From: Diploptera punctata
Taxonomy: Eukaryota; Arthropoda; Insecta; Blattodea; Blaberidae
Length of the DNA stretch: 64,000 nt
Reading direction: 5' to 3'
Assembly: GCA_030220185.1 (NCBI GenBank)
Contig: JASPKZ010001230.1
Span: 1,123,001 to 1,187,000 of the forward strand
Part shown: piece after piece, positions 32,633 through 63,540 of the stretch
Layout of the letters: each line of letters starts with the position of its first letter
How positions within the stretch are numbered: the stretch's first letter is position 1
The notes under the pieces: model-generated
Seen by the model: the letters and a program-made list of their open reading frames with translations, nothing else
The model's database searches: none
Told to the model about the DNA's origin: nothing
Position numbers and translations under genes: made by a program

Positions 32633-32716
32633 ATTTCGTCTCTAGTTTATTTGGAAGATGAAGCTTTTCAATATGCGATTTAAAATACTGTATTTACGTA
32701 GTCATATATATGTCAA

Positions 32717-39943: not shown

Positions 39944-40312
39944 ATCAACTTTTATAAGATTCATGATGTGTTCCGTTGAGGTATTATTCAAAATTAAAAT
40001 ATAAAATTATGGAATATTCACCTGAAAGTTCTGTCTCCTCAACTTAATTAATTATTTAACTGTAGCGCTTTCAGGACTTGTCCCATCATCGGCAGGATTC
40101 AAAACTGGTGAAATCATGAAAGCAGCTCACAACAATGACAATCTGATAAACGAAAACGAACCCAATACATGTAACCCCCTCTACCAGATCTTCAGTGAAA
40201 CACCAGTTTTGAATCCTGCCGATGATTGGACAAGTCCCAAAAGCACTAGAGTTAAATAATTTATTAAGTTGAGGAGACAGACCTTTCAGATGAATATTCC
40301 ATAATTTTATAT
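39944..40312. mobile_element. Foldback element in SCaMC intron A-B, 14-bp TSD
   Basis: Arms 39,995-40,110 and 40,201-40,317, 90-bp spacer. TSD TTTATTTTCACATA (39,930-39,943; 40,313-40,326). The minus strand of the left arm shows CCGATGA, stem GGGAC/GTCC, GAAAGCGC (40,092-40,069), a near-hammerhead core; the right arm has CAAAAGC in place of GAAA. The left side has about 50 bp extra outside the palindrome. Confidence 0.88.
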
Positions 40313-40811
40313 TTTATTTTCACATAGCTGAACAGATGCCATACCAGACCCTATATTCAGAGAAAATTGTGTATGGTACATGCTGAAACTGAACTTGGTA
40401 CCATCGAGATGTTAGTCAGACATGCTGTTATAAACAGGCACTTCTTCTTTGATCCTGTGGGCCTTTGAGTTTAACCTTGGCTTCCATAATCACCTCCATT
40501 AATTCTTGCCTGTATTGAGCATTCATTCTCCATCTTCCAATACAGACTTGCCTGATGTAATTTTACACATCATCCATCGTAGTTATGAAGATAATTAAAA
40601 ATGGATTTTAATCATTCAGTATCAATTTTGTTTTTTTGTGACATTGTACTAAAAGCTTGGAAAATAATTTTAAGTGAACCATGACAGTTGTTATTTTTGT
40701 CCCTACAAGCCAAAACGAGCCATCATCATCTTAATAGTTCTTTTCCAGCTTGCACTGTTCATTAATTGCTTCTACTTTGTGAAATGATCACAATTAATAT
40801 TGTTTTTGTAG

Positions 40812-41069
40812 GTACATGGCTCTAAACAGGTGGGCGTGAAGTCATGCTTAAAGCATCTCCTCAAAGAAGGAGGAGTATGGAGTTTGTGGCGAGGCAACGG
40901 TATGAATGTTGTAAAGATAGCCCCAGAATCAGCCATTAAATTTATGGCTTATGAACAAGCAAAGAAACTAATTAGAGGAAACAATACAAGAGACTTGAGT
41001 ATTTATGAGAGATTTGTAGCTGGATCTCTTGCCGGTGGGATAAGTCAGACTGTAATTTATCCTCTTGAG
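40812..41069 (+). CDS. SCaMC: SCaMC mitochondrial carrier, exon B
   Basis: 86 codons, phase 0 at both ends; acceptor ttttgtag, donor GTATGT. It begins VHGSKQVG and continues from the first signature into matrix helix and helix 2 (EGGVWSLWRGNGMNVVKIAPESA), the conserved WRGNG and P-E-x-A segments of carriers. It ends with helix 3 and the first half of the second signature, PLE. PLE is completed by VMK at the start of the next exon, so the second PxExxK motif spans an intron. The 2.8-kb upstream intron (38,056-40,811) holds a SINE-A copy, a MITE-like copy, an AT run and a foldback element. Confidence 0.96.
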
Positions 41070-41461
41070 GTATGTATAACAAAGGATTCCTGATTATTTT
41101 GTTAAGGTTAGGTGGTAGAAATGTATAAATTGTAAACATTTGTACAAAGCTTCTGTGTCATAAAATGATAACATCTAATCATATCTTGATGTTATGTAAA
41201 TGGGTTTATAAAAGGGGAAGGATAAAAGAGGAGCTCACTCTGGCCAACTGAACAAATGTTAAGATATTAGATCATGTGTTTTATAATCCAGTATGGCTGC
41301 TTTCATCTCTAAAAAGATGAAATTTTTCATTACTAGGCCTATTTGATTTTCTAATTATATTCAATGATTTTTCAGCTATAAGTGATTTTCAGTATAAAAA
41401 CTTTTGCTTGCTTACCTTTAATGTTAATAATACAAGTAATAAGATTAATAAGACAATTTCA

Positions 41462-41664
41462 TTTTAAAATACAATAGGAAGTAATATTAAGAGTTTGTTT
41501 AATAATTGAAACATTTTGTCTGTTCATTCTTACCTCTTAGAGTTGTTTTTTTCGAACATATGTTTGTCTGTAATTGCTGATGTTGGGGCTAAGAAGCTCT
41601 GAAACATATGTTCGACAAAAACAACTCTTAAGAGGTAACAATGAACCGACAAAATGTTTTAATT
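41462..41664. mobile_element. Foldback element in SCaMC intron B-C, 14-bp TSD
   Basis: Arms 41,501-41,565 and 41,602-41,666; TSD ATAAGACAATTTCA (41,448-41,461; 41,665-41,678). The loop itself holds the hammerhead-like motif CTGATGT, stem GGGGCT/AGCTCT, GAAAC (41,577-41,605), and GAAAC is the first part of the right arm. Confidence 0.88.
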
Positions 41665-41875
41665 ATAAGACAATTTCAGCTATTTTTATAGCATTTTACA
41701 AATTATCTTTAAAAATCTTATCATTTATTGATATTATGTACAATATTTTATTTTTAATAACCACATGCATGCACACACACTTACATACACACAAATGCAC
41801 ATACATTCAAAAGTTAGGTATTCATCAACAGTATGTGGCAAATGAGAAATTAAGCTATGTTTTAACTGTAATATA

Positions 41876-42433
41876 GGGCTATTCAGAAAGAAGGAACAGA
41901 CTTCAAACATTTTATTTCTTCCAAACTACAAAAAATGCACAATCCAACGTTTCTGTAAAGAGAAAAGTTTGAAGTTCTGATCACAGCCGCATTGACACTG
42001 TTGCTTGTCATGTTGATTGTTGGTATTGAAATGGCGACACAACGGGACGTTGGATTGGAAGAGGAGGAGCAGAAGATCAACTTCATCACTGGTGGCCTCC
42101 CAAGTCACCCAACGTATCTCCATGTTATTTTTATCTGTGGGGTTACGTAAAAGAGCATGTTTTTATCCTCCCTATGCCTGACACTCTTGAAAATCTGCGA
42201 CATCAAATTGTTGAAGCTGTGAATTTGTTAACTAGAGACTAGATGATTTGTGCATGGCAAGAAATAAGCCACCATTTTGATATTTGTCATGGAACACATG
42301 GTGCTCATATTGAATGCATAAAATAGCGAAATTTGAACTTTTCTCTTTCCAGGAACGTTGGAATTGTGTTTATATGTTTTGTAGTTTGGAATAAATAAAT
42401 GTTTGAAGTCTGTTCCTTCTTTCTGAATAGCCC
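41876..42433 (+). mobile_element. Deleted Tc1/mariner-type transposon with ~100-bp TIRs
   Basis: Bounded by AGGGCTATTCAGAAAGAAGG and its inverse; inverted similarity runs about 100 bp into each end. TA dinucleotides flank it (41,874-75; 42,434-35). The core (42,078-42,325) encodes a decayed transposase C-terminus on the + strand: WPPKSPNVSPCYFYLWGYVK, PMPDTLENLRHQIVEAVN, then HHFDICHGTHGAHIE after a stop. The PxSPxxxPxxFxLWGY block with a GAHIE end is typical of IS630-Tc1-mariner relatives. Helix-turn-helix and most of the catalytic domain are deleted, so it is non-autonomous. Located in the SCaMC intron between exons B and C. Confidence 0.9.
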
Positions 42434-42541
42434 TATATTTTGTTCATTGTGAAGATAATTCTGATATTAATTGATTTTGGATTTTCATGGTAACTTAAGT
42501 GTGTTTACATACATAATTTGTTATGTGTATATGTGTGTAAT

Positions 42542-42886
42542 GTCCCGCGCCGTAGCCGAGTGGTTAAGGCAGGAAGCCTTGGCGCAGAGTTACGGGACTT
42601 GCGCTGGTTCGAGTCTCCATGGGGGAAGAAATTTTCTCATGGTATTTTGGCCAGTATGGGACCGGTGCCCACCCAGCATCGTGATGCATTTTGGGTAGCT
42701 ACAATAAGTAGCGGCTCCAGGTTGAGAAAACCAGCTATAACGGCTGGGGGACTCGACATGCTGACCACATGCCACCCCTACACTGGCTGATTATCATCTA
42801 CCTCTGTGATTAACACATGTGGATGTGAGGCCAGCAGCCGGCTGGTAGGCTAAGGGCCTTGTAGGCCTGTCGTGCCAGGAGTTTTT
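42542..42886 (+). mobile_element. SINE-A, full length and near-consensus, in SCaMC intron B-C
   Basis: Complete from CCCGCGCCGTAGCCGAGTGG to TCGTGCCAGGAGTTTTTATA; flanks TATATGTG(TG)TAAT are duplicated, a probable TSD. Confidence 0.9.
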
Positions 42887-43166
42887 ATATATGTGTAATA
42901 TATATTAATAATATGCTTAATTATTTAAACATCTGTTACTATCATGATTCCATAAAATAAAGTGATATAGTTGATAGTAGTAATATCCTGAGGAAAGAAG
43001 TTAGAGACTGAAAGAGCATGTCAGTCAGTAAAAAGTGATCAACATGATGGAAAATAGGAAAATAGCCTAACAGCCCAAAAGATAGTGCTTATTTTATTGA
43101 CTCTGATCGTTCAAACAAGACATTTTATAATTTTTATTTGTTAGTATAGTCTATGTATTTTTTTAG

Positions 43167-43334
43167 GTTATGAAAACAAGACTTGCTTTAAGGAAAACAG
43201 GAGAATACTCGAGTATTTTAGATGCAGCAACCAAAATGTATAGGAAAGGAGGATGGAGAACCTTCTATAAGGGATATGTACCAAACCTCTTAGGAATAAT
43301 TCCTTATGCTGGAATAGATTTGGCTGTTTATGAG
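43167..43334 (+). CDS. SCaMC: SCaMC mitochondrial carrier, exon C
   Basis: 56 codons, phase 0 both ends; polypyrimidine tract plus tttttag acceptor, donor GTAATG. It encodes [18 protein letters not shown] and then [26 protein letters not shown]. That is the matrix helix, helix 4 and the strongly conserved [23 protein letters not shown] block of ATP-Mg/Pi carriers. An open frame runs on past the donor to a TAA at about 43,365, but its last residues do not match the family; the match resumes in exon D, so the donor at 43,335 is preferred. The upstream intron contains a foldback element (41.46-41.66 kb), a deleted mariner-type transposon and a SINE-A copy. Confidence 0.95.
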
Positions 43335-44208
43335 GTAATGTATAAAAAATTTAATATTTGGCATTAATGAATTAAAACTCCCTTGAATAAAAATAAAACC
43401 ATAAATTACTATAAAAATTATGTCCAAGTTTAAAATGAATATCGCCAACAATTAATTTGCATACTCGTTTAAGGGAGGTTTTTTAAGGTTTTTAATTTCA
43501 CAATTTATGTTCTTATACATGTTCAGTTGATAAATAATTTAAGGAATGCAGTGAAATCTCTTTAAGTTGATCAGGCAATAATCATAAGTTCCTTTTTTTA
43601 AAGGGTTCATCTTCTTAAATGGGAAGTGAAATAATTAGCTTAATAGGCCTAAAACACTAGACTAGTACTGCTTCTGCTGATGTATATTGTACATCACACT
43701 TACTCTGTGATTAAATACAATGATTTGAAATGAAATCTGAAATAATTAATGTTTTCTGCATGATTATAGAAATTTAATGAATAGTTTTACTTGTAACACA
43801 CATAATCTATGTGAATACAAAAGAACCAAAATTTGTATGTCTTAAAGTAATGCACTATTGGCATTTGAGATTTTTTCAGTTACTTAGCCACTACATTTTC
43901 ATAGTATTTTGTATATTTTTGAGATTAAATAACAAATATATAAGTTTTTGATTTCTGAGCTCACAAGCTAGAGACTTTCAACATTTTCCAGTGCCTTGTT
44001 AAATGAGATTGATGGTAATGTCAAGGATGCCATCTTTGTCATTATCATTTTTGTATTCATTATATTTAAAAACAGGATTAATTTCAGTAGTTTGTATGTT
44101 CCAGTGTTCCCCATCTAAGAAATAGGAATTATTAAATTAATATTATGAAACTAAAGTTGTTACTATGATTGAAATAAGTAAATTAATGTACACAACTAAA
44201 TTATGGTA

Positions 44209-44422
44209 ATCAATGGTAAAGAGAAAAGTTTTTGCTTGAACTGGTAATCGAACCCCGAACCTTCAGCTTTCTGTGCTGATGCTCATGATCACTCATCTAA
44301 TTCAGGCTTGGATGGGAATGAAGCCTGAATTAGCTTAGTAGTCAGAGCATCAGCACGGAAAGCTGAAGGTTTGGGATTTGATTCCCGGTTTAGGCAAAAT
44401 CTTTCTCTTTTTACCATTGATT
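44209..44422. mobile_element. Palindromic head-to-head dimer of the tRNA-like element
   Basis: Two inverse arms of about 101 bp (44,209-44,309; 44,321-44,422), 11-bp loop. Each arm is a tRNA-like module (right arm, plus: TAGCTTAGTAGTCAGAGCAT ... GGATTTGATTCCCGGTTTAGGC) with the family terminus TTTCTCTTTTTACCATTGATT. In intron C-D of SCaMC. Confidence 0.82.
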
Positions 44423-45126
44423 AAAATAGGAATTAATTTGAATGCCTGTAATAATACACGGTTAAGGCTCAGTTTGCTAACATCTTCATTACAATATTCA
44501 TGAATCTATTTTCTCAGATGATCTTAAAACCAGAACCAATGAAGCACTTCTTTATTGCTTCAGCTTTCATTTCTTTCCAGACACTTTTAATCCAATTCAT
44601 AGTATCAACTATTGTCACAGATTTTGCTTAATTCATGAAAAGTCATAACATTTAATGACCATGTGAATTTCTTTTGATACATCACTTTGAATGAATGAAT
44701 GAATGAATGAATTATGCCTTGCAAACAAGTCATCGTGTCGGAAGGAACAAATTCTATTTCTACATAAGATAAGTTTTTGTTACAATGACAATGAAGCTTA
44801 TCAACAGGAAGAGAATGTTTTTTTCTATTTTGTTAATGCATTTTGTCATGTAGTTTTCTAAGCTAGACACATAAAATTTCACGTCATGTGCCTTCTTACA
44901 GCATGACAGTAAGGGTCGAATGTTTGAACGCATTAGACAGTAAAAGGCGTTCTCTGCTGATTAAGTTTTATTCAAACACATTTTTCTTACTCAGAAATCT
45001 ATTCACGCGGTAATAATTGTAAAGCTACCTGACAAGGTACCTTAAGATCGTAGCTCAAGATATAAACTTATGTGAAAATCCCAAAGGGAACCAATGGTAA
45101 CCGATGTAGTTTGAAACTTATCCAAG

Positions 45127-45318
45127 ATGTCGGACCTTGAAGACTTCGATCATGTTTTCGGTATACGCAGAGAAGAGGAATTTGATAGAGTCTACCAAAG
45201 AATTCAACTGGAAGAACAGGAGAATCGGCGTAATATTGCGCGTCGCAGACGTGTTTGTATACGGTATTATTTGCAGGATGCAAGCATAAATCCATTCCTC
45301 TATAGCAGACGAAAATAA
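45127..45318 (+). CDS. Small charged ORF in SCaMC intron, unknown
   Basis: A 63-codon ORF (MSDLEDFDHVFGIRREEEFD... ending NPFLYSRRK) inside a CpG-rich island (about 45,000-45,420) in the intron between SCaMC exons C and D. Composition is strongly Glu/Arg and unlike the surrounding AT-rich noise. The N-terminal charge pattern is loosely reminiscent of the start of PIF/Harbinger-derived nucleases, but no catalytic region follows. It could be a transposon remnant, or a first exon of a nested gene (no donor recognised). Confidence 0.3.
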   Translation: MSDLEDFDHVFGIRREEEFDRVYQRIQLEEQENRRNIARRRRVCIRYYLQDASINPFLYSRRK

Positions 45319-45757
45319 CGGAAGTGGTTTTATCGCTGAGAATTCTGGGTAATTCGTTGCCAATATTACGAAAACGTCAACATTCATGCATGACCGGTTA
45401 AGGCGGCCGTTAATTCGATCTCAGCTCACCAGTGATTGGAAGTAATTTGAGTAGAGAGTAATGTATTTGCATACGACCCTAAGTGTTTCTGAAGCATTTC
45501 CAACATGATGTGAGAATAACCAATAATTCTCCTTTATAGAAAAATATGTTGTTAAGGGGAGGTTTAATAGGAGGTTACTGCAAATAGCAGTAAAAAACAA
45601 TATATTTACAACTATTAATTTTACTGCATTATGTAAAAAAATATATTAAATACAGTTTCTTTATTAAATTAAATTAATTTGTATTCTTGTTATTAATTTT
45701 TTAAAAATGAAGCTATGAAAACTTGGGTTACATAAAACTTTTTTTTTATGTTTACAG

Positions 45758-45905
45758 ACCATCAAAAACTCGTATTTAAGGCAGCACAATAATGGAGAAA
45801 CACCAAGTGTGTTTTTGCTTTTAGCGTGTGGAACTGTATCAAGCACATGTGGTCAGGTGTGCAGCTACCCATTAGCTCTCGTGAGAACTAGGCTACAGGC
45901 TCAAG
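45758..45905 (+). CDS. SCaMC: SCaMC mitochondrial carrier, exon D
   Basis: 148 nt: 49 codons plus one base (phase 1 donor GTAAAG). Acceptor is tttacag. It encodes [17 protein letters not shown] followed by [32 protein letters not shown], i.e. helix 5 and the third signature PLALVR. The third repeat follows the usual tripartite SLC25 organisation. The linker before helix 5 is short and polar, as in other insect members. Upstream lies a 2.4-kb intron with a palindromic tRNA-like dimer and an unexplained 63-codon ORF. Confidence 0.95.
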
Positions 45906-45965
45906 GTAAAGAATCTCTAAATACAATAAATATTATTGATAATTTCTAGGAAATAATACTATGAT

Positions 45966-46477
45966 TGAATATGTGTGGGAAATGACATTATAAGGTTTAT
46001 TTTAATTATATTTGAGTTGTGTTTTTTGACTCACCTCATATTTCTTGATTTTTATGCAGACCGGTTTCGTTGATATCTGTGCAACATTCTCGATGCATCA
46101 CAACTGTTTTTCCGCAGTTGTCCCTCCTGCAAATTGATTTCTGCGCCCTCTGTTGGCTGACCGATGAACTTCCAAATCAAACCTCTCTCTCCCTTTCACT
46201 GGGAATTTCAAAATTCATAGTTTTCTTTTTATTATTTTAATTTAATTAAGAATACAAAGAAAACCATGAATTTTTAAATTCCCAGTGAAAGGGAGAGGGG
46301 TTTTATTTGGAAGTTCATCGGTCAGCCAACAGAGGGCACAGAAATCAATTTGCAGGAGGGACAACTGCGGGAAAACAATTGTGATGCATTGAGAATGTTG
46401 CACAGATAGCAACGAAACTGATCTGCATAAAAATCGAGAAATATGAGGTGAGTCAAAAAACACAACTAAAATTTAAT
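45966..46477. mobile_element. Foldback element in last SCaMC intron
   Basis: Arms 46,002-46,229 and 46,255-46,480, about 25-bp loop. Termini GACTCACCTCATAT / ATATGAGGTGAGTC. Probable 12-bp TSD TAATACTATGAT / TAATGCTATGAT (45,954-45,965; 46,478-46,489, one mismatch). Arms include a stem GTTGC/GCAAC followed by GAAAC, but the CTGANGA half is degraded. The inner sequence resembles the 3' coding end of the PLE copies (the segment after GIY-YIG), so these are PLE-derived. Confidence 0.82.
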
Positions 46478-46501
46478 TAATGCTATGATGTTTATTTAAT
46501 A

Positions 46502-46712
46502 TCATTAAAAGGAGTCGGAATTTACACCTAACCTCATATTTTGTTGATTCTTGAGGATCGGTTTTGAAAGTTACACTGCTTCCATTCTCAACTAGAGTTG
46601 TAATGAAACAGTCGGATCCTAATTGAGAATGGAAGCAGTTTAACTTCCTAAACTGGTCCTCCAGAATCAACGAAATATGAGGTAAGGTGTGAATTCTGAC
46701 TCCTTTTAATGA
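46502..46712. mobile_element. Foldback element, adjacent to the previous one
   Basis: Arms 46,502-46,591 and 46,621-46,712, 29-bp loop. Termini again CACCTAACCTCATATTTTG / inverse. No clear hammerhead core and no convincing TSD. Confidence 0.82.
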
Positions 46713-47062
46713 CAATGAATATTATTTCATTCGTTCGTAGACTAACACTGGTTTAAATATATTTTAGTTACCTGAATTCAACATGAGATTTTTTCCTCAA
46801 GTTTTACATTTAGAAAAAGATCTAATCATAAATTCATATTATTTAAAAAATATTTGATTTATTATAAATACACCTTGGATTTTGTAAACTCTATAAGATC
46901 TAGATTTAGTCACCTAAAATAGGCCTTAGAAATGTAAAATAGGTTCTAAAAATACTACATTTAGCCTTTCAAAAATGTGTAGTATCATATAATATTTAAG
47001 AACAAAATGGATGTAAGAATTATGAAATTAATAAAAGAACTAGCGATTCCTTGGCTCTAAGA

Positions 47063-47238
47063 TTAATTCAAGCTCTAAAGTAAATGAGTACCAGATGATT
47101 GTTCTGGGGGTAAAGTTAGGCATCATGCAGGACTGACAACCTGACTAATATTTTGTGTCGATTGTATAGAAAGATGGGAGCCTTAAGCTCCTACTACCCA
47201 TAGGGCCTCCTAAGACCTATAGTGAGCTCACTTTACTT
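47063..47238 (+). mobile_element. SINE-C, partial
   Basis: Body and 3' end on the plus strand (GAGTACCAGATGATTGTTCT, GGAGCCTTAAGCTCCTACTA, CTCACTTTACTTT); the tRNA head is missing. Confidence 0.78.
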
Positions 47239-47553
47239 TTGAAATAAAGTTAGTTAACTACTCTAACTTATTTATTGACTGCAAAGAAAATTTACAACTT
47301 TTTCTTGTGTTATTTCACTGTCATGAAAATGTTATGAATATGTCAGGAATTGTCTTGAGATTTAGCAGCACTGAACTGGGGCAAATTATATGATTTAAAT
47401 TTTAAAAAAGGCAGTTTTACCACCAAAAGGTAGGAAATGGGTACTAATGGATAAAAATTTGTATGCTAGGCACAATTATTAGTCTTCTGAAATCTGTATC
47501 ATCATAATGGTTTTTATTTATCCACTCAGGGGGGGAAAATAGGGATAAAACCT

Positions 47554-47738
47554 AATTAATAGTGAGTGGAGAACATATTTTTATCGACTCACCTCATATG
47601 ATTTCAAATATCTTTGATACCGACGGTGGAAGCCATGACTGAAGAGGGACATGATATTGTCTGAAACCGTCGGTATCAAAGATATTTGAAATCATATGAG
47701 GTGAGTCGATAAAAATATGTTCTCCACTCACTATTAAT
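47554..47738. mobile_element. Foldback element with HHR-like core in its loop
   Basis: Perfect 73-bp arms (47,554-47,626; 47,666-47,738). The 39-bp loop carries CTGAAGA, stem GGACA/TGTCT, GAAAC (47,639-47,667). Arm termini carry ATATGAGGTGAGTC. Confidence 0.87.
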
Positions 47739-48169
47739 GATAAACCTCATAATGTTTACTTCCCAATATTAATTTAAATTTAAAACCTAATATCTGATTA
47801 ATTTAATCATAGAATAACCATACTCTAGACTTGCACAGAAATCAAAACATAGATAATTTATTCCTAAATATATCTAGCATAATTCTGAGAATTTAAATTC
47901 ATTGAAGAAATTTGTTTTTTGAAAACTCATCTCGTAAATTTCATGCTTTTCACGAAACCATGGTTTTGGGCAAAGTCTCACCCATCTTCAGTCAAAACTC
48001 CGAATGTTTACTTCCCAACATTAATATCAATATAATTTTGAGAACTCATTTTAAAGGAAGTTAAGTGGGCATGAGGACTATCTGAATATAAATAAGTGGA
48101 TCCTTCCCACTATCCAGGATTAGATACAGAGTTGATGCTCATCTGTGGTTCTTTAGTTCCTGGATTTAA

Positions 48170-48527
48170 GATAAAATCAAATGTTTCATACCTCTCCTCG
48201 TAATTAATCTTCTAAGTAGATCACGATTTCAAGACCATTGTGGTCCCATCCTCAGTACCTTCTTGATGACTGATGTTATGTCGATTGGAAGAACCACTTC
48301 TTATTCTTCCCTCTATTGGTGGACCAATAAACCTCTGGATCAGAGGGAAGAAGAAGAAGTGGTTCTTCCGATCGACATAACATCAGTCGTCAAGTTGGTA
48401 CTGAGGATGGGAGTGCAATGGTCTTGAAATTGCCATCTACTTACAAGATTAATATGAGGATAGGCATGAAACATTTAATTTTATCTTAAATTAAACATCA
48501 TAGTGATTTATTCCTATGAAAGTTTAA
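48170..48527. mobile_element. Foldback element, 12-bp TSD, with 3' tail
   Basis: Arms 48,164-48,314 and 48,342-48,491. TSD TCCTGGATTTAA (48,158-48,169; 48,528-48,539). After the right arm comes a tail ending ...GATTTATTCCTATGAAAGTTTAA; close relatives of this tail occur at about 2,519-2,545 and 55,727-55,752, probably relics of the same family. HHR-like cores: plus CTGAGGA...GAAAT (48,401-48,430) and its inverse (48,226-48,255). Confidence 0.87.
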
Positions 48528-48884
48528 TCCTGGATTTAAACCTAGCTGGGGTCAATGGATTTTATCAGAGCTTAAGTCTTCCTTCAGAAGAAAAGTAAAC
48601 CCATTTGTCCCATGTAGAGAACCACAAGACTGAAATCTGAGATCCCTGAAAAAGTTTGTTGACACCTAAAATGAATTCCAACGTTAATAGCCAGGCAAAT
48701 GATTACAACACAGATAGTGTGTATTATTTGTTGTGTGTGGGACTAAGACAAGACAGTCATATGTCTTACTACTCATTATACTATGTTGAAATCTTCAACT
48801 TCAGGTCAATATAAAAATCTATTCCCTGCTAATGACCAAAGTTATTAGTGTCATTAAATTTATTTTCTTTCAGGATTGTTACTG

Positions 48885-49445
48885 TTATTTACACAGGTAT
48901 CCTCAATCAAAATATAAAATTTTTCTTCCACACTTCCTGGTCTTGCGTGTCTGCTTCTGTCATATTTCTCTTCTTTCTGTTGTCTTTAATTTCCTTTATC
49001 CACGTTGGCTTTGGTCTACCATGTTTCCCTTTTCCAGGAGGTATCCATTTCAATACCTCTGTTTGTCTCTCTTCTCATTTGACCATACCATCTTAGTTGG
49101 ATTTCTTCAATCTCTTGTGCAATATCCTTTTCTACTTTCATTATTTCTCTTATTGAATTATTTTTTATTTTGTCTAATTTTGATATTCTTGCTGATCTTC
49201 TTAAGAAGTCCATTTCTGTAACTAATAATTTATTTCTGTATTTTTGCTTCAACGTCCATGTTTCTGCACCATATAATAAAATTCTCTTCACAATTGTGTT
49301 ATATATTAATAATTTAGTCCTCTTGATTATATTCCTATTCCATAAAATATAATTTAATATGCCAATAACTTTCTTTGTCACTTATTCTTTTTTCAATGTC
49401 AAATTCAGACGATCCATCTTTTTGAATTATTGAGCCCAAATATTT
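48885..49445 (-). mobile_element. LINE fragment, third family (RT C-terminus)
   Basis: A 121-codon minus frame (49,381-49,016) reads YNTIVKRILLYGAETWTLKQ, KYRNKLLVTEMDFLRRSARI, EEIQLRWYGQMRR: the post-RT region of a non-LTR retrotransposon unlike the TAAG-tail family. A frameshift leads to further matching sequence down to about 48,885. It lies in the last SCaMC intron. Confidence 0.88.
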
Positions 49446-49486
49446 AAAATATAGTGTCATTAAATAAAATACTATTATTCAAACCT

Positions 49487-49765
49487 GGCATTTGATAGTG
49501 TAGTTGGTTAAAGCAATATGCTACAAACCAGAAGTGCTTAGCTTGATTCTTGATGAGTTGGAATTTTGAACTGGCTTAACCCTTCTGACAAAAACATGGC
49601 CCTGCACCGTCCTCATCCTCTAACTCTAATATGTATTAGATCTGGGTAAACAGGCAACTGTTATATAGATCAGTCTGGTGACATCTCATCAAACAGTGGG
49701 AACATAACCTCCTACAACACTAAGAGCCCCATAAGACATGTAGACGAAATCACTTTACCATTTAC
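49487..49765 (+). mobile_element. SINE-C, old
   Basis: GATAGTGTAGTTGGTTAAAG head, then ACATGGCCCTGCACCGTC and TAAGAGCCCCATAAGAC; strongly diverged. Confidence 0.72.
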
Positions 49766-50059
49766 TATCCAAACCTTTAATCGGTTAAATTGGTGGCTGA
49801 CGTATCTGACCAACATGTATTTTATATCCTGAACTCAAATTGCATTTTTAAACTAAAAGCATCATGTGAAGTAGAATTCAGGATGGATTGAGTTCCAAGG
49901 TCATTCTGGAAAAATACAGGATAGTATTCCAGTTCTGTTAAATTCTTTATTACTTCAATATTTTTGGCATATTGCGAAAGAGTGTCTGCCATGTTTGTCT
50001 GTTCATCATTGCATTTTCTTTCTCTTAAGCTTTATTTTATAACTGCTCTGAAATCCAAA

Positions 50060-50290
50060 ACTTTCTAATTTTTTAGGCATTAAGTTCCTTGCCCCTCTGA
50101 TCTCGAAGGGTTGCAGGTTGAAATCCGATTGGGATAGATGATTTTTTTAGGATAGAGAAATCCAAGGGAAAGATTTTAAGCTGTAGGTTCCCAGTCTGAA
50201 GATTTTCAGGTTCATGAAAGAATATAAAGTCTAGAACCTCTGAGCAAAATTTATAGGTTTTCCATCCAAGTAATATCTTACTTAATAATT
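50060..50290 (+). mobile_element. SINE-D
   Basis: Plus orientation: head GATCTCGAAGGGTTGCAGG...TTGAAATCC; then AAATCCAAGGGAAAGATTTT and CAGTCTGAAGATTTTCAGG. Confidence 0.75.
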
Positions 50291-50809
50291 GAGTTAGAAT
50301 TTGACTGGTTTCAATACTTATGTGTATCATCTTCAGCTCTCTCTAACTGTTTACATATCACTTCTTGTAAATAATAATTAATATCTTAGTTACCTTCTAG
50401 ATGTCTCTTTGAGGTGAAGACTTGTACATTTGTCACTTGCTGACATTTGTAAAGACAGAAAATTATAATACTTACATTATAAAAAAAAAGTACCATGTTA
50501 AAATTGGATGGTGTTATGCATCAACCAGTTATGTGCTATTATGTAAGTTTTGAGAGAGAAAATGTTTAAAGTTTAAGTCAATCTTCAAAATTTATTGTAG
50601 TGCCAAACTAATTGTATTGGATATAGAAAGTTATTTTCCTTGACGATTTTATTATTAATTTAACACTTCTCATTGTTCAATGAACAATGGCTATAAAGTA
50701 GTGTTAAATTCCCAATAAATGTCTTCTTAACTAAGAAGCCGCCATTTGCAAAGATAGAAGCTATGGTTTCAAGCATTTGGCGCGAGGGAATTACAACGTA
50801 CATAAGAGA

Positions 50810-50933
50810 AAAATTTGCGTCTAGATCGTAACTCGCCTCGGTAGCTCAGTTGGTAGAGCACTTGGCCCGGAAAGCCAAGGGTCCCGGGTTCGAGTCCCGG
50901 TCTAGGCGAACATTTTTCTCTTCAAATATAATT
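50810..50933 (+). mobile_element. tRNA-like element with inverted ends
   Basis: Core GCCTCGGTAGCTCAGTTGG ... GGGTTCGAGTCCCGG ... TCTAGGC (50,833-50,906): A box, B box, near-complete acceptor stem, 9-nt anticodon loop (CCCGGAAAG between CTTGG and CCAAG). Bounded by AAGAGAAAAATTTGCG and the inverse CGAACATTTTTCTCTT. Same family as 59.2 kb. A functional tRNA is unlikely because of the loop and TIRs. Confidence 0.78.
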
Positions 50934-51283
50934 TATTTTCCTTGTTTGACAGTTATGCATCGACAATCTAAAAGCAGGAACATTTGGCACTTAGCTGCAT
51001 GATGCAAAATTTAGATTAGCGTTTATGAAGATCTGGTTTCATAGCTGTTTCTTGCAAAACAAAAAAACCTCTGATTTGACAAATTGTGTTTACATTTTTC
51101 TTTAATAATAAGACTATGTTTAAAGATTTGGCACTAAAAGTGCGCATACTCTTATTTCATGAGCCAGTGCAGCAGATGACATCAAAATCTCATTTTTTTT
51201 AAAAAAGGCACTTAGCCAGTTGATGCATAACATCGTCCAATTCAGAAATGTAAATAGAAAATTTATAATGCCTTACAATTTAA

Positions 51284-51725
51284 TATAATAAATTTGGGAA
51301 TTTTTACATGTTTTCTTAATAAGAATCAAATGAATCTTGAATTTTTCTTACCTCATACATGTTTTTTAACACAGAACTGCAATATCAGAAAAAACATCTT
51401 TTCCATCTTCAGCTGTTTTCACGACTCAATTTTTTTTTCTCTTTTGCCATTAATTTTCTAAACTGCCATCTGGTGTACTTCTGAAGAAGTAATTTTTTTT
51501 TTCTCTTTTGCCAGTAATTTTCTAAACTGCCATCTGGTGTACTTTAGAAGATTACTTCTTCAAAAGTACACCAGATGGCAGTTTAGAAAAATTACTGGCA
51601 AAAGAGAAAAAAAAAATGACAGTTGTGAAAACAGCTGAAGATTGAAAAGATGTTTTTTCTGATATTGCAGTTCTATGTTAAAAAAAATAGATGTATGAGG
51701 TAAGAAGAATTCACAATTAATTTGA
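51284..51725. mobile_element. Foldback element just before last SCaMC exon, 14-bp TSD
   Basis: TSD GCCTTACAATTTAA (51,270-51,283; 51,726-51,739). Right arm about 51,555-51,710; left arm about 51,344-51,480, followed by a roughly 52-bp segment duplicated directly (51,430-51,480 and 51,493-51,544, coding text CTCTTTTGCCA...CATCTGGTGTAC). Termini CTTACCTCATAC / GTATGAGGTAAG. The core CTGAAGA is kept (51,635-51,641) but GAAAC has become GATAT. Confidence 0.85.
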
Positions 51726-51777
51726 GCCTTACAATTTAACTGTACTTGATATTCATTGTATTATTATTTTTTTGCAG

Positions 51778-51971
51778 TAGTCACAAATGTTGGGCAGCCT
51801 CAAGAAATGTGTAGTATGATGGGAATAATTCGAAATATAATTCAGAGAGATGGTTTATTGGGACTTTACCGAGGCATTACTCCAAACTTCATGAAGGTTG
51901 CACCTGCCGTTAGCATTAGCTATGTTGTTTATGAAAGATGCCGCCAGACTTTGGGTGTAAATATGACGTGA
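51778..51971 (+). CDS. SCaMC: SCaMC mitochondrial carrier, exon E (last coding exon, with stop)
   Basis: Acceptor tttttttgcag; the first two bases complete a split codon (G|TA, Val) from exon D, then 63 sense codons and TGA at 51,969-51,971. It encodes [19 protein letters not shown], then the matrix helix and helix 6: [25 protein letters not shown], ending TLGVNMT. The [24 protein letters not shown] block is diagnostic for SCaMC. The five exons give 308 residues, against roughly 470-580 for full-length family members; the missing part is the N-terminal EF-hand half. A foldback insertion ends only 38 bp upstream of the splice acceptor. The 3' UTR must start at 51,972; its end is not clear. Confidence 0.96.
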
Positions 51972-54432: not shown

Positions 54433-54443
54433 TATAATTAATT

Positions 54444-54571
54444 AATATTTAATTTTAGGAGGTGATTTTTTAGGTTATTTTAATTAAATTATTTTCAATC
54501 TGATCATCTTACTTCAAGAAACAATCAACATTAATATTGAGGCAAGATGATCAGACTGAAAATAATTAAAT
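54444..54571. mobile_element. Minimal foldback element, TSD
   Basis: Arms of 30 bp (54,481-54,510; 54,544-54,573) around a loop with ATTAATATTGAGG. TSD TATAATTAATT (54,433-54,443; 54,572-54,582). The left extension TATTTAATTTTAGGAGG... is shared with the 61.4-kb element. Confidence 0.78.
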
Positions 54572-55130: not shown

Positions 55131-55619
55131 AATTCTTTGAGAATTCATCTTAATCATGCCATTCAGAGCTTCTTCCTTCTGGTTTACATGGAGGTAATTT
55201 GTTTTCTCATGTTTTTTTAACATATCCTACCCATCTGTCTTGATATTATAATGACTATTATAAAATTTTTGGTATTTATACAGATGATACAGTTCTTCCT
55301 TTTTCCTCTGCTGGCCAGAGATTTTTCATAATCTCATCCTTTCAGATATATTTAAACATGATATATCTCCCTGCGATGAAGTCCAAATTCCCTACTTTAG
55401 ATAAGACATGATTAAAAATAATGTTTAACCATAAATCGTATCTTAAAGTACATAGTCTAGTTATATGATATAATTATTAAAGTCAATCTTGAATTATTTG
55501 TGCTTCAATTTAATTGTTGTTTAATGACTTGTTATATTAAGTTACTGTGATTTGAAATGAATACCATAAATTGCCAAACAGCAAAACTAACATTAAATTC
55601 ATGATTAAATTAAAATGCT

Positions 55620-55755
55620 TCATACCTCTCCTCATATCCAGTCTTCTAAGTAGATTGCAATTTTAAAGCCTTGGTCACTTCATCTTCAGTACTTTCTTGT
55701 CGACTGATGTTATGTCAATCAGAAGTGATTTATTCCTATAAAAGTTCAACATTAA
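55620..55755 (-). mobile_element. Single-arm relic of the 48.2-kb foldback family
   Basis: Matches one arm of the 48.17-48.53-kb foldback: CATACCTCTCCTCATATCC, CTTCTAAGTAGAT, TCTTCAGTAC and CGACTGATGTTATGTC, then the tail TTATTCCTATAAAAGTTCAA. No opposite arm. Confidence 0.7.
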
Positions 55756-57100
55756 ATTCTTTTAACTGAGGCTGGTGCACTGGGAAGATTTAGTCACCTT
55801 ATTCAGAAATGCAAGTCGGATAATATTAATATATAAAAATTATGTTTACAGAATAATAGTAATGTAACAATTTTGCTTTCATTAAATTATTTTGATTGTG
55901 TGTTATTAACTTATATTATTTTTTGTACTACATAACTTCTTATTTTCTTTTGTCTTCGTAACTAAGAGTTCAGTTACTATGTTATGTTTATGTTATCCGT
56001 GTGTATTTATTTGATGTAACTGTCTTTATGCTAAGTTCTTTTATCAATATGATTACAGGAACACCTGAACTGAAACGTGTTCTTTAATGTAAACATATAC
56101 AAACTAATAAAAGGGAGAACTTTTATATGCAATCAGTGTGAAGGTAAATAATCTGTTCTCTCTAAGATATCACCATAAAAATCTCTCTATAAAACAGTAT
56201 TTTTAATAATAAGTATTGTATTTAACTCTAAATGTACCAATTAATGATGTGTAATACAAATTTTAAACTGTTCCATGTCTTTTGTGCCAAAGCCTAGGTA
56301 CAAGGTAAAAAGTGGACAAATCTTCTTCTCAGAATATTTTCTCTGTGATGAAATGAATCTTAGGCTTTAGCTACACACAAATTTTCTTCTCATCAGATAA
56401 TATTGTGGATAAGCTGTGATTTAGTAATGGACGTATCTGGTACAGATAATGATGCATTTAAAAACTACTTCACTTTTCTTGCTTGGGTAGCCAACTATAC
56501 TAGAAAGCAACATTTTCTTCATCCCATCGTGAATGAATTTATTATCTTGCCAAGTGTAACTTCATATTGCAGGTTTATAGCATAAGAATGGACATATTAT
56601 GAACAAAAATTGTATTTAAATTTAACACATACAGTTGCTAGTGTATTATTCAGATTGTTTATATTTAAGTCTTTTAAAAAAAGCTGCAGCATTGTGGGGG
56701 GAAAAAATGTGATAAATTATTTGTACAAAGAATGGAGAGATGTTATATTTTACACTTCATCAAATAATTCATTAATATATGAAATTGTGATAAAATCAGT
56801 GCTTTAGTTGGAGAACAATATTTGGGAAGACTCATCTTTATAGGAGCTTCCATGAAGAAGCTGTTATACTTTATGTAGTATGACCATTTTTAATGACTTT
56901 TGACCAAAAAAAAAAACTTCCAGCACAATTGCTATAATAAATTATAAGGGAATGAACTTAAAAAATCCACCTCAAATATTTGGGGCCCCATATTCCCCTC
57001 TCCTAACTGAAGCACTGGATAAAGTGTTATAAAAATGGGAAGATTGTGTAATGTTACTGAAACTTGGAATGTCTTTTCTCTTGATACTATGTTATTAAAA
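55756..57100. other. No recognised feature
   Basis: AT-rich; short frames only. Confidence 0.45.
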
Positions 57101-57114
57101 ATGTATTACCTTTA

Positions 57115-57306
57115 ATTAAATTATTTTTAGTCTATTTTTGATCTTACCTCAGTATTAATGTTGATTTGTTCTTGAACATATTTTGATTATGATATAATTG
57201 AAACATGTTCCAGAACAAATCAACATTAATATTGAGGTAAGATGAAAAACAGACTAAAAATAATTTAATTAAAATAACCTCAAAATATTACTTCCTAAAA
57301 TGAAAT
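57115..57306. mobile_element. Foldback element, 14-bp TSD
   Basis: Arms 57,111-57,179 and 57,205-57,273; 25-bp loop. TSD ATGTATTACCTTTA (57,101-57,114; 57,307-57,320). Same terminal sequence as the 61.4-kb PLE unit (TTGATTTGTTCTTG... / inverse) but no coding core. The loop side shows ATTA-TGATA-TAAT then TGAAAC, a decayed hammerhead-like hairpin. Confidence 0.86.
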
Positions 57307-57531
57307 ATGTATTACCTTTATTCAATCTGAGGACAAGAATTATAGCATAATTGGATTAATGGATACACAAAGCAATTCATTGTTTGTAGAGGCCAACAGA
57401 ATATCAAGAGAAGACACCTGAGTTTTGGTGATTGAATAATGTGAATGGTACTGTAAAGAATAAGGGCAATGATTACCATACCTTTCAGAAAATTTTCCCT
57501 GCGTCTTTTCCAAACTGAAGCATTCATTATA

Positions 57532-58174
57532 CAGGGTTATTCATTTATAAGCTAATGGGCGCACAGTGTTTTGCCTCTCCCGAGCTCTTGCTAGATTCCA
57601 CCACTACGGCTGCCTTTGAGCATGTGCATCTACATCTACTATCATTGGCACTTGACAGTACTGTATTGTCTAGCAATATGAACAAGCGATTGAATCTAGA
57701 GCAATGTATTTTTGTGTGCAAAAATTATTTTCATTGTGAGTCACCAAGCCATGTTTGCACAGAGTATATTCAAAAGTTCCCTGGTGAAGTGCCTCCTTCC
57801 AAATTTACAATTCACATGATTGTGAAGAAATTTGAAACCACTGGTACAGATTTAACAGCGGAAAAGTCAGACAAAATAAGCACAAGTTTTGAACGTACAC
57901 CAACAAAATCCATACCAAAAATTAGCCTAACAGGTGGGAATTTCAGAGTCTTCCACACATAGAGCAACTAAATTTTTAAAACTAAAACCTTACAAGTGTA
58001 CACATGTCCATTGTTTAAAACAAGGTGATGATATTTTCAGCATCTTCTATAAGGTAAGATTTTTATACATGCTTTACACACGGAGTTTATATAGGAGCAA
58101 ATCTGGCTGTGGCACACCCAAGTGTGCACGGGCAAAATTACGTGTGCCCATTAGGTTATAAATGAAGAACCCTG
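57532..58174 (+). mobile_element. Deleted Tc1/mariner-type transposon (N-terminal HTH kept)
   Basis: Inverted ends CAGGGTTATTCATTTATAAG and its near-inverse, about 30 bp with the right copy slightly diverged; TA on both sides. An ATG at 57,678 opens MNKRLNLEQCIFVCKNYFHC, ...KFPGEVPPSKFTIHMIVKKF: the first helix-turn-helix of a mariner-like transposase. A frameshift near 57,937 continues into THRATKFLKLKPYKCTHVHC, the second HTH. The DDE catalytic domain is deleted. TIR and TA target are intact enough to date it as moderately old. Confidence 0.9.
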
Positions 58175-59161
58175 TATATACAAAGACTTTATTGATTATT
58201 ATTTGTTCTTCCCACAAATATGTAGACTGCAACAGTCTATCTATCACTGAAGCTTGGAATCATTATCAGACTATAGTCAATTTAATTTTCTTCATGTCCC
58301 TTTTAGGAGGGTTGAATATGCTATTAGTCTTAATTTTCCAATATGACTTCGCTCCATTTCCATTAATTCTCATTATTTTACAAACCTAACTAATTGAATT
58401 GAAATAAAAAAAACTTGTAATAAAAAAAAATTATGCTTAATGTGACGTTAATAAATTATAGCATCCACTTAATACATGTTTAAATGGAAACCACTCTCGC
58501 AGTATGGCGACAGGAGCCTTCATTAGATGTCATTCTTTAAGATAGGACATTGCCAGTCTATCTCTTTGTATATTATTCTTTTCCAGTTGAACAAGTGTAC
58601 ATATAAACATTGGTATTGTACTTAGAACTATTTCTGTAACTACAGTAAGCAAAACCCTTATTCTTCAGTCATAGTTAGTAATAATATATTAAACTAATTT
58701 TTCTAAAAAAACACTCAATAAATAAAAATGCCCATAATTATGAAATATTTCCAACCAAATGCCAGAAACTGGGATTAGCTTTATTAAATCAAGATAATAT
58801 TGCCCCATCTTGGAATTTCTTCTTCCCCTATACTCCGATTAAGAATAGAGTAATTTTATTATTGTAAGTTTTCTTAGCCAGTGTCATTCGTGGCACATTC
58901 CAGATGTGGAGGGCATGAATGTTTTGGCTATTTGTGCAGTCTGTATATATACAGAAATCTCTTCATAATAGAATTCAACACCATAAGTTACTTACTGCAG
59001 TAATAGCCAAAATGTCCAGTAATGTTAACTACATGCCATGAATATTTAAAAATACACTTTTCTCTATTATTTCTATGATAAAAATATACTTTTCTTTCTT
59101 TCTTTCCCCCCTTTTATTTTCCTTCAACTTCTTTTCTCTCACTGTTTTAGGAAGGATAAAG
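58175..59161. other. No recognised feature
   Basis: AT-rich intergenic-like sequence. Confidence 0.45.
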
Positions 59162-59175
59162 TAGTTCTACGTTAT

Positions 59176-59335
59176 ATTTAAAGAGAAAAATTATATGCTC
59201 AGACCGGGACTTGAAACCGGGACCCTTGGTTTTCTAGTCCAAGTGCTCTACCATTTGAGCTACCTGAGCAAGTAATTTTTCTCTTTAAATATGATTTATC
59301 CATCATTGAGATGTATGAAATTAATAATAAGAACA
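59176..59335 (-). mobile_element. tRNA-like element with TIRs and 14-bp TSD
   Basis: The minus strand gives a cloverleaf-like core GCTCAGGTAGCTCAAATGG...TTTCAAGTCCCGG...TCTGAGC (7-bp acceptor stem, D arm, T arm) but a 9-nt anticodon loop, so not a normal tRNA gene. It is enclosed by about 27-bp inverted ends of the type ATTTAAAGAGAAAAATTA. A near-perfect duplication TAGTTCTAC(G/A)TTAT (59,162-59,175; 59,336-59,349) brackets the unit including an AT-rich tail, indicating retro-insertion. Confidence 0.8.
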
Positions 59336-59514
59336 TAGTTCTACATTATTTAATCTGATGCTCTGTGATCATAGAAACAGAATAAATTCCTTTAATGGCA
59401 GTTCATAATCACACTTCAATTACATAGAATCGATGTCTTTAATATATTTATTTTAGACTTTTAATAAAGGCATTGGAAAATTTAAGAAAAAAAAATGTAC
59501 TGCCTCATCTCATT

Positions 59515-60120
59515 TTTGTCTTCTATCTAGACTGGTTTCAGAACCTAATTGGTTCCATCTTCAGTATTTTCATGACCATTGTTCTGTCATATTGATGAAC
59601 TGCTTCTTCCTTCTTCTGTTCATAGATTGTTTAACCTCCAAATCAAATCACATTCCCCGAGAATTTCAAAATTCTTTAATTTCTCCTTGTTTTTGTTGAC
59701 TTTTTTCCCAAAATGGTTTTTCTATTTGTTTTATTAACATAGCCTTTCTTACAATTTGATCTTTTCCTGACCAAGTGTGAGCGCTACTGCAGAATTCTCT
59801 ACTTCCCCGTTTTTGACATGCCTAAGCTGTTCCTTCACACTGGTTTTCATTTTTTTTCTATGTAGATTTTATCACAATCCCTGCATTTTATCTGATAAAT
59901 CCCTGATTTTTCTTCAATTTTCTCATTTTGTTGGATCTGATTAATCTATTGAGGCTGCAGTCATTTTTCAGTACCAATCTTATGTTTAATTTTTAAATAT
60001 TTTGAAACTTACGGTGTTTAAATGGATGATTTGTAAATTTCTTAAATTTTATAAGACAACAATCATGAAAATACTGAAGATTGAACCAATTAGTGTCTGA
60101 AACTGGTCTAAATAAGTATT
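59515..60120 (-). mobile_element. Decayed Penelope-like fragment with HHR-like inverted ends
   Basis: Minus-strand text between about 59,960 and 59,650 reads KSGIYQIKCRDCDKIY (GIY-YIG start) and GECDLIWR further on, with several stops. The left end has a minus-strand core CTGAAGA, 5-6-bp stem GGAACC/GGTTC(T), GAAAC (59,535-59,564). The right end has a plus-strand core CTGAAGA...GAAAC (60,074-60,103). The same architecture as 61.4-62.0 kb, older. Confidence 0.78.
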
Positions 60121-61399
60121 AATATTAATTACTGACTTACAGTGAGAGTTCCTCTAGGGGGAAAAATCCCTGATTTCAAGATTTTCATCATAAGCAATAA
60201 GAAGTAAACGCATTTCATTACAGTGTATATATAATTTAATGCTATTTTAATATACATTACTTTAACCATGTTAGGAAATCTAAACAAATGTTCCTGTATA
60301 GTTATTAGTTTTTTCTCATTCCTGTGATTAAGAATGTGCCAAGGAAATAATGTGTGTCCCAGTTTATAATTGATATATTTTTTTTTATTTTGAGGATCAT
60401 AATAATTCTACAGTTTCTTAGATTAAATAAATTATTGTGAAACTTTATTTATGCATTTAATAAATTTTGAGCAGGATAATAGTTCTAGTATTTGTGAAAA
60501 GCAGGAGTACTTCAAATAAATTTAAATATAAAAAGAAATTATGTTTTATGATTAGAGTAACCAGATGTCTACTTATACATTATGATCAAAAGTGTTGAGA
60601 CGCTTAACAATAACTCATAGCTTTTTTTTTTTTTTTTTTCCCTTGACTTGCACTTATGAGATGGTCTACCCTTTCGTCTTTGACAGACTTAACTCAGGCA
60701 GGAAAACTTTCCAGAAGGTTAAACTGTTATAGGAGTCTGAACTTTTATGGAGACAGGTCATTCTTCTTTTAGAGAAGTTAATGACATGGGTCATTGGAAT
60801 CTGGAGTAAAGACTATGTTCTAATTTATCTTACAGCTGTTAGAGTGGATTAAGGTCAGAGCTCTGGACCAGCCAGTCCTTCCTTAACTTTTTGTCTCAAA
60901 ACCACTTCCCTATAGACTTAGCTTTAATGTAAAGAATTATCATACTCACACGAACAATTCTCATTAGCAAACTTGTCGTCTATGATAGTACAAATTCATT
61001 CAGAATTAATAATTTTTAATTAAATTTAAATTCATTCAGAATGTCTTTTTTAACCTCTGACATTCTAATTGGTATTTGTTTTACAAAGGACCAAGCTTGT
61101 TAAACGAGAAACAGCCCCACACTATAATGCTATCTCTTCAAATTTCATTGTGGTATAATACAGGCTTCTAAACTACCATTTTAAATTAAAGTATATTTTT
61201 AGTAACATTTACTAATATCATATCTTTTATCTTGCTATTATACTTTTCCTTTATATTGTAATAATTCATTTAACTTCATATTTTGTTGAACAATGAATTA
61301 GATTACAATGAACAAATTATTTTCTCAAATCATTTATCATAGCTGACATACAGAACTACTGGTGATGCTGATGATGAACTCAGTTTTATGGAAGTTAAT
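60121..61399. other. No recognised feature
   Basis: AT-rich, one poly-T run near 60,620. Confidence 0.45.
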
Positions 61400-61411
61400 A
61401 CATTTATCCTT

Positions 61412-62025
61412 AATATTTAATTTTAGGAAGTTATATTTTGAGGTTATTTTAATTATATTATTTTTGGACTGGACATCTTACCTCAATATTAATGTTGATT
61501 TGTTCTTGGACATGTTTCAAAACAATTCTGTTTTATCGTTAGCTTTTTGATAAAAATAAAAAGTCAGGAATATATCAAATTGATGCATGGGTTGTGAAAA
61601 GATATATATAGGGAAAACAAAAAGAAACCTAAAAATTAGAACCAAAGAACACATAAGAAATATTAAAAATGGAGAAATTGAAAAATCTGCAGTTGCTGCT
61701 CATGTTTGGTCTGAAAAACATAATATAAATTCAGACACTAAATTATTAAAACAGTTAGAAAATACAAAAGAGCTGAATATTTGGGAAAAAATTTATATTC
61801 AGAAGAACAGAAACAGAGTTATGAATTTTGATATTCCGATGGAGGGTGACCTTGTTTGGAGGTTCTTTGGCCAACCACAGGATGGAGCTGACATCGACAT
61901 AGGTGGTGCAACATAAATAAAACCAGTCTGGGAAAGCTGATGATAAAACAGAATTGTTTTGAAACATGTCCAAGAACAAATCAACATTAATATTGAGGTA
62001 AGATGTCCAGACCAAAAATAATATA
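61412..62025 (+). mobile_element. Palindrome-ended Penelope-like unit with GIY-YIG ORF
   Basis: A 614-bp insertion with a perfect 12-bp TSD ACATTTATCCTT (61,400-61,411; 62,026-62,037). Inverted arms about 95 bp (61,452-61,547; 61,934-62,027) enclose one ORF. The right arm carries a textbook hammerhead-like core: CTGATGA (61,937-61,943), a 6-bp stem AAAACA/TGTTTT, then GAAAC (61,961-61,965). The left arm has the same but degraded (CTAACGA). Arms end in TTGAGGTAAGATGTCC. The unit looks like a 5'-truncated Penelope-like element in which the HHR-bearing end is present twice in inverted orientation. Confidence 0.88.
61587..61916 (+). CDS. GIY-YIG endonuclease domain of a Penelope-like element (truncated)
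   Basis: 109 codons beginning MGCEKIYIGKTKRNLKIRTK. The KIYIGKTKR-N-L--R-KEH motif and the downstream AAHVWSEKHNI segment are the GIY-YIG nuclease half typical of Penelope-like retroelements (YIG plus the R and H residues visible). The usual upstream cysteine/histidine (GIYQINC-DC) piece is mostly missing and the reverse transcriptase is absent. It ends at TAA at 61,914, just before the inverted end. Presumably non-functional alone. Same family as copies at 63.1 and 63.6 kb. Confidence 0.9.
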   Translation: MGCEKIYIGKTKRNLKIRTKEHIRNIKNGEIEKSAVAAHVWSEKHNINSDTKLLKQLENTKELNIWEKIYIQKNRNRVMNFDIPMEGDLVWRFFGQPQDGADIDIGGAT

Positions 62026-63396: not shown

Positions 63397-63540
63397 TTTT
63401 CTAATTAGTTATTAATAGATTACCCAGGCTAAATTTATTTATCGGTGCCAATGTAAATTTTTAAAAAATTTCAAGAAATTCAATATTACATTGGCACCAA
63501 TAAATAAATTTAGCCTTGGTAATCTATTAAAAACTAATGA

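Follow-up and report, generated by a model that had tools for sequence, protein, structure and literature searches.

Inverted pseudo-long terminal repeats (pLTRs), one of them bearing a 31-bp tail, and target duplications of 8-10 bp are described for the Penelope-like elements (PLEs) of Adineta in the available part of their account (PMC3846280), which also proposes that the inverted structure forms by snap-back on an antisense template. A 2024 study of an Anolis PLE in vitro found that the protein cuts and extends both strands and that two reverse-transcription start sites bound the tail, and it left the second-strand steps of insertion to be validated (PMC11167929). How a PLE insertion is completed, and why it leaves inverted pLTRs that may or may not carry a tail, is the question addressed here from a 64,000-nucleotide stretch of the cockroach Diploptera punctata (contig JASPKZ010001230.1, positions 1,123,001 to 1,187,000, forward strand; hereafter the window), which is rich in palindromic insertions. 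These share with the PLEs of Adineta vaga (available part of PMC3846280) and Anolis (PMC11167929) a GIY-YIG endonuclease, a reverse transcriptase, head-to-head pLTRs, a one-sided tail, target duplications and a hammerhead motif; one tail in 24 of 25 insertions as a near rule, mixed-source arms and many coding-free pairs are features of the present set that were not found in those descriptions. With a probability of about 0.8, each insertion would consist of two separately truncated reverse transcripts of PLE RNA joined head to head, most simply one primed from each nicked target strand. Inverted pLTRs, tails, duplications and PLE ribozymes are already published, and a search of the open-licence literature found no report of a one-tail rule, of arms made from separate templates or of a PLE-driven tRNA-derived short interspersed nuclear element (SINE).

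An inverted-repeat search of the window returned 49 pairs, and 22 palindromic loci were searched for duplications with 4,000 random intervals as the null. At ten of the 22 loci the palindrome is directly flanked by an exact 11-14-bp duplication (single-locus chance 0.005-0.02 each), and the window total is 13 palindromes inside an 11-14-bp target duplication, ten exact and three with one mismatch. The original prediction of at least 13 foldback loci, eight of them with readable duplications, is thereby confirmed and extended, and the ninth duplication that it had read (45,966-46,477, 12 bp, one mismatch) holds at 11 of 12 bases. It had also stated that the duplication brackets the palindrome, often with a one-sided extension. 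Such an extension is present in all 13 insertions, where one edge of the symmetric core abuts the duplication and the other is separated from it by 30-75 nt (the tail):

15,925-16,225: PLE-type palindrome; 13-bp duplication, 30-nt left tail, hammerhead core in both arms.
39,944-40,312: PLE-type palindrome; 14-bp duplication, 55-nt left extension, hammerhead-like core (CCGATGA form).
41,462-41,664: PLE-type palindrome; 14-bp duplication, 42-nt left tail.
44,132-44,423: head-to-head pair of a tRNA-like SINE; 12-bp duplication, 75-nt left extension, many genome copies.
45,938-46,712: older PLE-type palindrome; 14-bp duplication with one mismatch, left tail split by the nested insertion 45,966-46,477.
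45,966-46,477: PLE-type palindrome nested in the tail of 45,938-46,712; 12-bp duplication with one mismatch, 39-nt left tail.
47,557-47,780: short non-autonomous PLE palindrome; 11-bp duplication, 44-nt right tail, hammerhead core in the right copy.
48,170-48,527: PLE-type palindrome; 12-bp duplication, 42-nt right tail, hammerhead core in both arms.
51,284-51,725: PLE-type palindrome; 14-bp duplication, 42-nt left tail.
54,444-54,570: very short palindrome of 61,412 type; 12-bp duplication, 40-nt left tail.
57,115-57,306: short palindrome of 61,412 type; 14-bp duplication, 37-nt right tail.
61,412-62,025: PLE insertion; 12-bp duplication, short tailed left arm and longer untailed right copy, the latter holding a hammerhead core and the last part of a GIY-YIG frame.
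62,866-64,022 (its last 22 bases lie beyond the window): PLE insertion in which both inverted copies carry GIY-YIG sequence; left tail.

Removal of the nested 45,966-46,477 insertion together with one copy of its duplication makes the tail of 45,938-46,712 continuous and uncovers the 13/14 duplication of the older element (45,924-45,937 and 46,713-46,726). The duplication of 62,866-64,022 (11 of 12 bases) was seen after the next 22 bases of the contig were added. Ten palindromic loci (7,769; 8,826; 11,004; 14,075; 22,290; 32,165; 34,408; 34,795; 41,870; 59,524) gave no significant duplication against the 4,000-interval null and were excluded from the insertion set.

Protein domains and ribozyme cores identify the source of these insertions. 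Two GIY-YIG segments were found in the window:

63,121-63,408, minus strand: GIY-YIG endonuclease frame of a PLE (Pfam 4.7e-6, above the cut-off).
61,584-61,916, plus strand: C-terminal part of a GIY-YIG endonuclease frame (weak Pfam match at 61,584-61,913, 0.0083, below the cut-off).

The former has 36 database relatives, of which the only two with a species name are from Diploptera punctata. An IMG/VR scan with the GIY-YIG frame found no relative. Reverse transcriptase was not found within the window's own truncated PLE copies; a frame for it is present in a genomic copy (L026) of the 61,412 family (RVT_1 4.9e-8, YVDD motif), families being named here by window position. Strict hammerhead cores with stem II number nine in the window, against a mean of 0.24 (maximum 2) across 200 shuffles: seven lie in five palindromes (15,925; 39,944; 47,557; 48,170; 61,412), one in 59,524-60,114 and one alone at 50,336. 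The motif is present in the palindromes as a putative ribozyme. Rfam models recognised no hammerhead in the window; PLE hammerheads are minimal forms according to the available part of PMC7761336. A looser ribozyme scan was set aside because it gave more matches outside palindromes than inside, and Rfam microRNA matches, all below the gathering scores of their families, were read as chance matches on long hairpins. The solitary core at 50,336 (minus strand), outside any palindrome, is possibly a PLE remnant. With GIY-YIG, reverse transcriptase, hammerhead motif, target duplication, inverted pLTRs and a one-sided tail all found, the palindromes are insertions of Penelope-like elements, and both the Penelope derivation and the retro-insertion with target duplication that had been proposed at the outset are supported.

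To follow the 61,412 family beyond the window, the genome (3.12 Gb, 10,165 contigs) was searched; 40 of 1,854 candidates were scored and 38 loci (L009-L046) compared, at 29 of which at least one head-to-head pair was found. The stretches compared, of 3.5-6.5 kb, show inverted pairs; tandem partners further away would fall outside them. A duplication score limit of 8.2 was chosen after the scores were known (the script flag was 8.5, and the lower limit brings in L013) and yields 27 rows, the scores of 150 random intervals having a 99th percentile of 7.65 and a highest value of 12.1. L021 repeats L017 and L043 repeats L042 on other contigs, and their removal leaves 25 insertions, with the window's own represented by L009 (common flanks, 95.6% over 5.5 kb). 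Among these 25 duplication-confirmed insertions, 24 have one tail end and one no-tail end, and the duplications measure 9-16 bp (the search extended no further than 16). In another five pairs no duplication was confirmed, and three of them (the second pair of L020, L037 and L040) carry one tail each. If the two ends acquired tails independently, at least 24 of 25 one-tail insertions would be expected with P = 8e-7, and at least 27 of 30 with P = 4e-6.

In most 61,412-family insertions the two copies break off at upstream points that do not coincide, and the join between them consists of a few bases common to both or of a filler of similar size; this inner junction varies between insertions (the junction count left out the first 540 bases of the element reference, which began inside an inverted arm). 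The original prediction held that each palindrome entered as a unit; since the junctions are mostly new, here and in the 47,557 family described below, that claim is for the most part not supported.

The leading alternative is self-priming, in which one reverse transcript folds back and copies itself, so that the element is a palindrome at birth. Arm lengths bear directly on this. Sixteen of the 24 one-tail insertions have a no-tail copy that exceeds its partner by more than 10 nt, and in 13 of these the difference is more than 50 nt; in seven insertions the tail copy is the longer, and in one the lengths are near-equal. In those 16 the longer arm lacks any sequence from which the tail of the shorter could have been copied, which indicates that both of their arms were made from RNA. 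The excess of 16 over 7 was not taken as a rule, as the opposite (a shorter no-tail copy) is seen in the 47,557 family, a sample chosen by tail side. Self-priming also sits poorly with the fillers at several junctions and with arms that are more diverged than their duplications: the 13 window duplications hold three mismatches against 12.3 predicted by arm divergence (P 0.001), in a test that assumes equal mutation of arms and flanks. An 11-locus version of the same comparison gave one mismatch against 9.7 predicted (P 4e-4), and a conservative length model for the ten exact duplications gave 1.6e-4.

Sequence variants within single insertions point the same way. The arms of L012 differ at 17 of 481 sites inside a 16/16 duplication; one arm has eight exact matches among the arms of the family, two of them on allelic contigs, and the other groups with an older subfamily through three well-shared variants and four more with one or two members (support 84/82). 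L032 and the window's 61,412 insertion each have arms with different alleles at a variable position of the ribozyme core, and one of these alleles marks a supported group (97/89) made up of L010, the left arm of L032 and the right arm of the window insertion. Judged by these variants, the two arms come from different source elements in at least three insertions, among them the window's own. These cases contradict self-priming where they occur, and a minority of insertions could still fit it. The family also contains a 10-nt tandem unit, TGCAACATAA, in one or two copies, a number on which the arms of one insertion often disagree; the length difference is probably due to slippage during reverse transcription and was not counted as template mixing.

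Several observations weigh against two separately primed transcripts as the general case. Nine of the 38 loci have no inverted partner in the stretch compared, L018 (761-3090) is the single confirmed insertion with two tails, and, among the pairs without a confirmed duplication, L011 has two tails and L016 none. The differences of the odd L012 arm are mostly private and its grouping is weakly supported (84/82). At the ribozyme position, only 3 of 19 arm pairs are discordant (one by a gap) against 10.9 expected; the arms mostly agree, so the two templates would normally come from one source, and free mixing is not the rule. This general agreement in source also suits self-priming. Copy lengths lie within 25 nt of each other in the near-equal palindromes L015, L032 and L034, L014 is closed, and the arms of the 15,925 and 47,557 palindromes are 99-100% identical; self-priming could also give palindromes of these kinds. 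Finally, the in vitro work on the Anolis PLE saw no start-site difference between the strands (PMC11167929). On balance, the genomic copies count against self-priming, as published, in most insertions, and we consider it improbable as the general route.

Two separately primed transcripts could account for the structures as follows. Each nicked target strand would prime its own reverse transcript of the element RNA, one starting at an inner site to give the no-tail end and the other starting about 30-55 nt further downstream to give the tail end. The two complementary DNAs (cDNAs) would usually stop at different upstream points and be joined head to head, either at a few bases that both contain or with a short filler between them, and repair of the staggered cut would leave a target duplication of 11-16 bp. 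Priming on both strands and end joining of the cDNAs are steps that we infer, as is a GAGGT/ACCTC hairpin that might form at the start region. Duplexes between GAGGT (arm) and ACCTC (tail) are more stable for an element's own pair than for 300 shuffles and are not better than cross-family pairs (p 0.20); a test anchored on three positions gave 0.016 for nine rows, and 0.03-0.12 once related rows were removed. Such a hairpin is plausible. On this view the short palindromes would result from strong truncation or, in two families, from RNAs that are themselves short and non-autonomous. The non-autonomous class originally predicted stands in part, as the short 47,557 RNA and the 44,132 tRNA-like SINE; the short, coding-free palindromes otherwise mark one extreme of a truncation continuum.

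The first of these families was examined from 47,557-47,780, for which 40 of 435 candidates were scored and 16 copies compared, 17 with the window's own. All 17, in a sample chosen by similarity to one tailed/untailed copy, share a common no-tail end on one side and a common tail end on the other. The repeat at the expected place exceeds any in 60 shuffles (maximum 9) in 13 of the 17, a few of these being of low complexity; L089, L094 and L099 have repeats of 8-9, and L096 has none. Left copies end at varied points, and the starts of 12 of the 17 right copies lie no more than three bases from a single position immediately upstream of the hammerhead. These ends suggest a short RNA whose 5' end recurs and which is paired anew in most insertions. 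Metazoan non-long-terminal-repeat retrozymes, in the available part of PMC7761336, are similarly short, coding-free and hammerhead-bearing, and their dependence on PLEs has been proposed there and in the available part of PMC8969392. Retrozymes are described as tandem repeats with circular RNAs, whereas the 47,557 family forms inverted pairs in 17 copies, with no tandem array in the stretches compared.

These junctions also bear on a second alternative, that a ready-made non-autonomous foldback palindrome is copied by a PLE. One junction is common to four of the 17 copies of the 47,557 family, which may have propagated as a unit, and several 44,132 copies share a common junction type. Copying of a finished palindrome is difficult to reconcile with about 14 different junctions among the 17 copies; likewise, among the 40 of 1,854 candidates scored, the full-length 61,412 insertion matches only the window copy and its counterpart on contig C10065, which has common flanks. 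We judge this explanation slightly less probable again than self-priming.

The second non-autonomous family, 44,132-44,423, has a tRNA-like head (Rfam tRNA, 38.5 bits at 44,324-44,395; cut-off 29) and forms head-to-head SINE pairs with several kinds of junction. From its search, 40 of 2,537 candidates were scored and 14 copies compared. Duplications of 12-13 bp, above all of 60 shuffles (maximum 10), flank five of the 14 tested copies, the window's included; the repeats of L074 (12, one mismatch), L075 (9), L072, L073, L076 and L080 do not exceed chance, and no duplication was seen at L070, L077 and L079 in this shuffle-controlled test. L082, a single SINE copy, lay outside the test. Of six copies that extend past the tail end, five do so on one side and one does so on both, and several of the copies L072-L088 continue there into a further shared stretch, which indicates that a longer form of the SINE exists. 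The 3' terminus agrees with the 47,557-family tail end at 17 of its final 20 positions; eleven tails were compared, and 20,000 shuffles gave a 99.9th percentile of 15 and a maximum of 17. The family resembles tRNA-derived SINEs in its tRNA-like head, high copy number and duplications in part of its copies, and differs in its head-to-head pairs and in a 3' terminus that may resemble that of PLEs rather than that of long interspersed nuclear elements (LINEs), on which tRNA-derived SINEs rely according to the available part of PMC8969392. The 44,132 SINE may use PLE machinery. We hold it to be an even chance that PLE integration is normally two-ended, with an inner start on one strand and an outer start on the other, and that RNAs gaining the PLE start region, the tRNA-like SINE included, enter in the same way and make up a PLE-driven class of SINEs.

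A succession of two insertions is highly improbable, as is a DNA transposon with terminal inverted repeats: inverted ends with target duplications are also DNA-transposon features and nesting does occur (45,966-46,477 in 45,938-46,712), but a single duplication of variable length brackets both arms, an unpaired tail is present at one end in 24 of 25 insertions, and the elements contain reverse transcriptase and GIY-YIG frames. A Foldback element or miniature inverted-repeat transposable element would need matching terminal inverted repeats and a duplication of fixed length, and is contradicted by the same one-end tail (24 of 25) and by duplications of 9-16 bp.

Contig C10065 is a second copy of the window region, allelic or duplicated, and provides the empty-site comparison suggested in the original prediction at one position:

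48,473-48,484: empty target site in the window, at which C10065 carries a 1,218-bp PLE insertion (L068:5424-6641) that the window lacks.

The insertion has a 12-bp duplication, a 53-nt inverted untailed arm and one tail; its right copy is about 70% similar to the 61,412 family over the reverse transcriptase and GIY-YIG part, and a hammerhead core and a YVDD motif were both read by eye. Palindrome and duplication are absent together from the empty site. For the window palindromes within 43,137-48,484, no empty site was found on C10065, as the compared stretch carries them too. At 49,714-49,724, C10065 (L068:7899-8489) holds a 591-bp non-palindromic insertion absent from the window; it resembles window positions 44,914-45,473 (87%), and its duplication is not clean.

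Exon-like frames with a mitochondrial carrier domain occur at 40,812, 43,167, 45,719 and 51,750 (stretch 40,812-51,968), which suggests a single carrier gene with several of the palindromes in its introns. Some of the palindromic loci outside the insertion set have features of their own. An inverted pair of another tRNA-like repeat occupies 7,769-9,149 (arms 94% identical, 760 nt apart, no significant duplication), with a further copy of the repeat near 42,541. The decayed inverted pair at 59,524-60,114, with arms 487 nt apart, has a strict hammerhead core at 59,564 (minus strand), and no duplication was found there. The AT-rich inverted repeat at 32,165-32,636 has arms of 193 nt that are 98% identical where aligned; no duplication and no PLE motif were seen at this locus, which is a different kind of foldback.

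One tail per insertion is a sharp rule that can be checked in any PLE-rich genome. If true, a SINE moved by PLEs would add a new class of partner for SINEs, and the back-to-back structure of two transcripts hints at how this poorly understood class of elements enters DNA.

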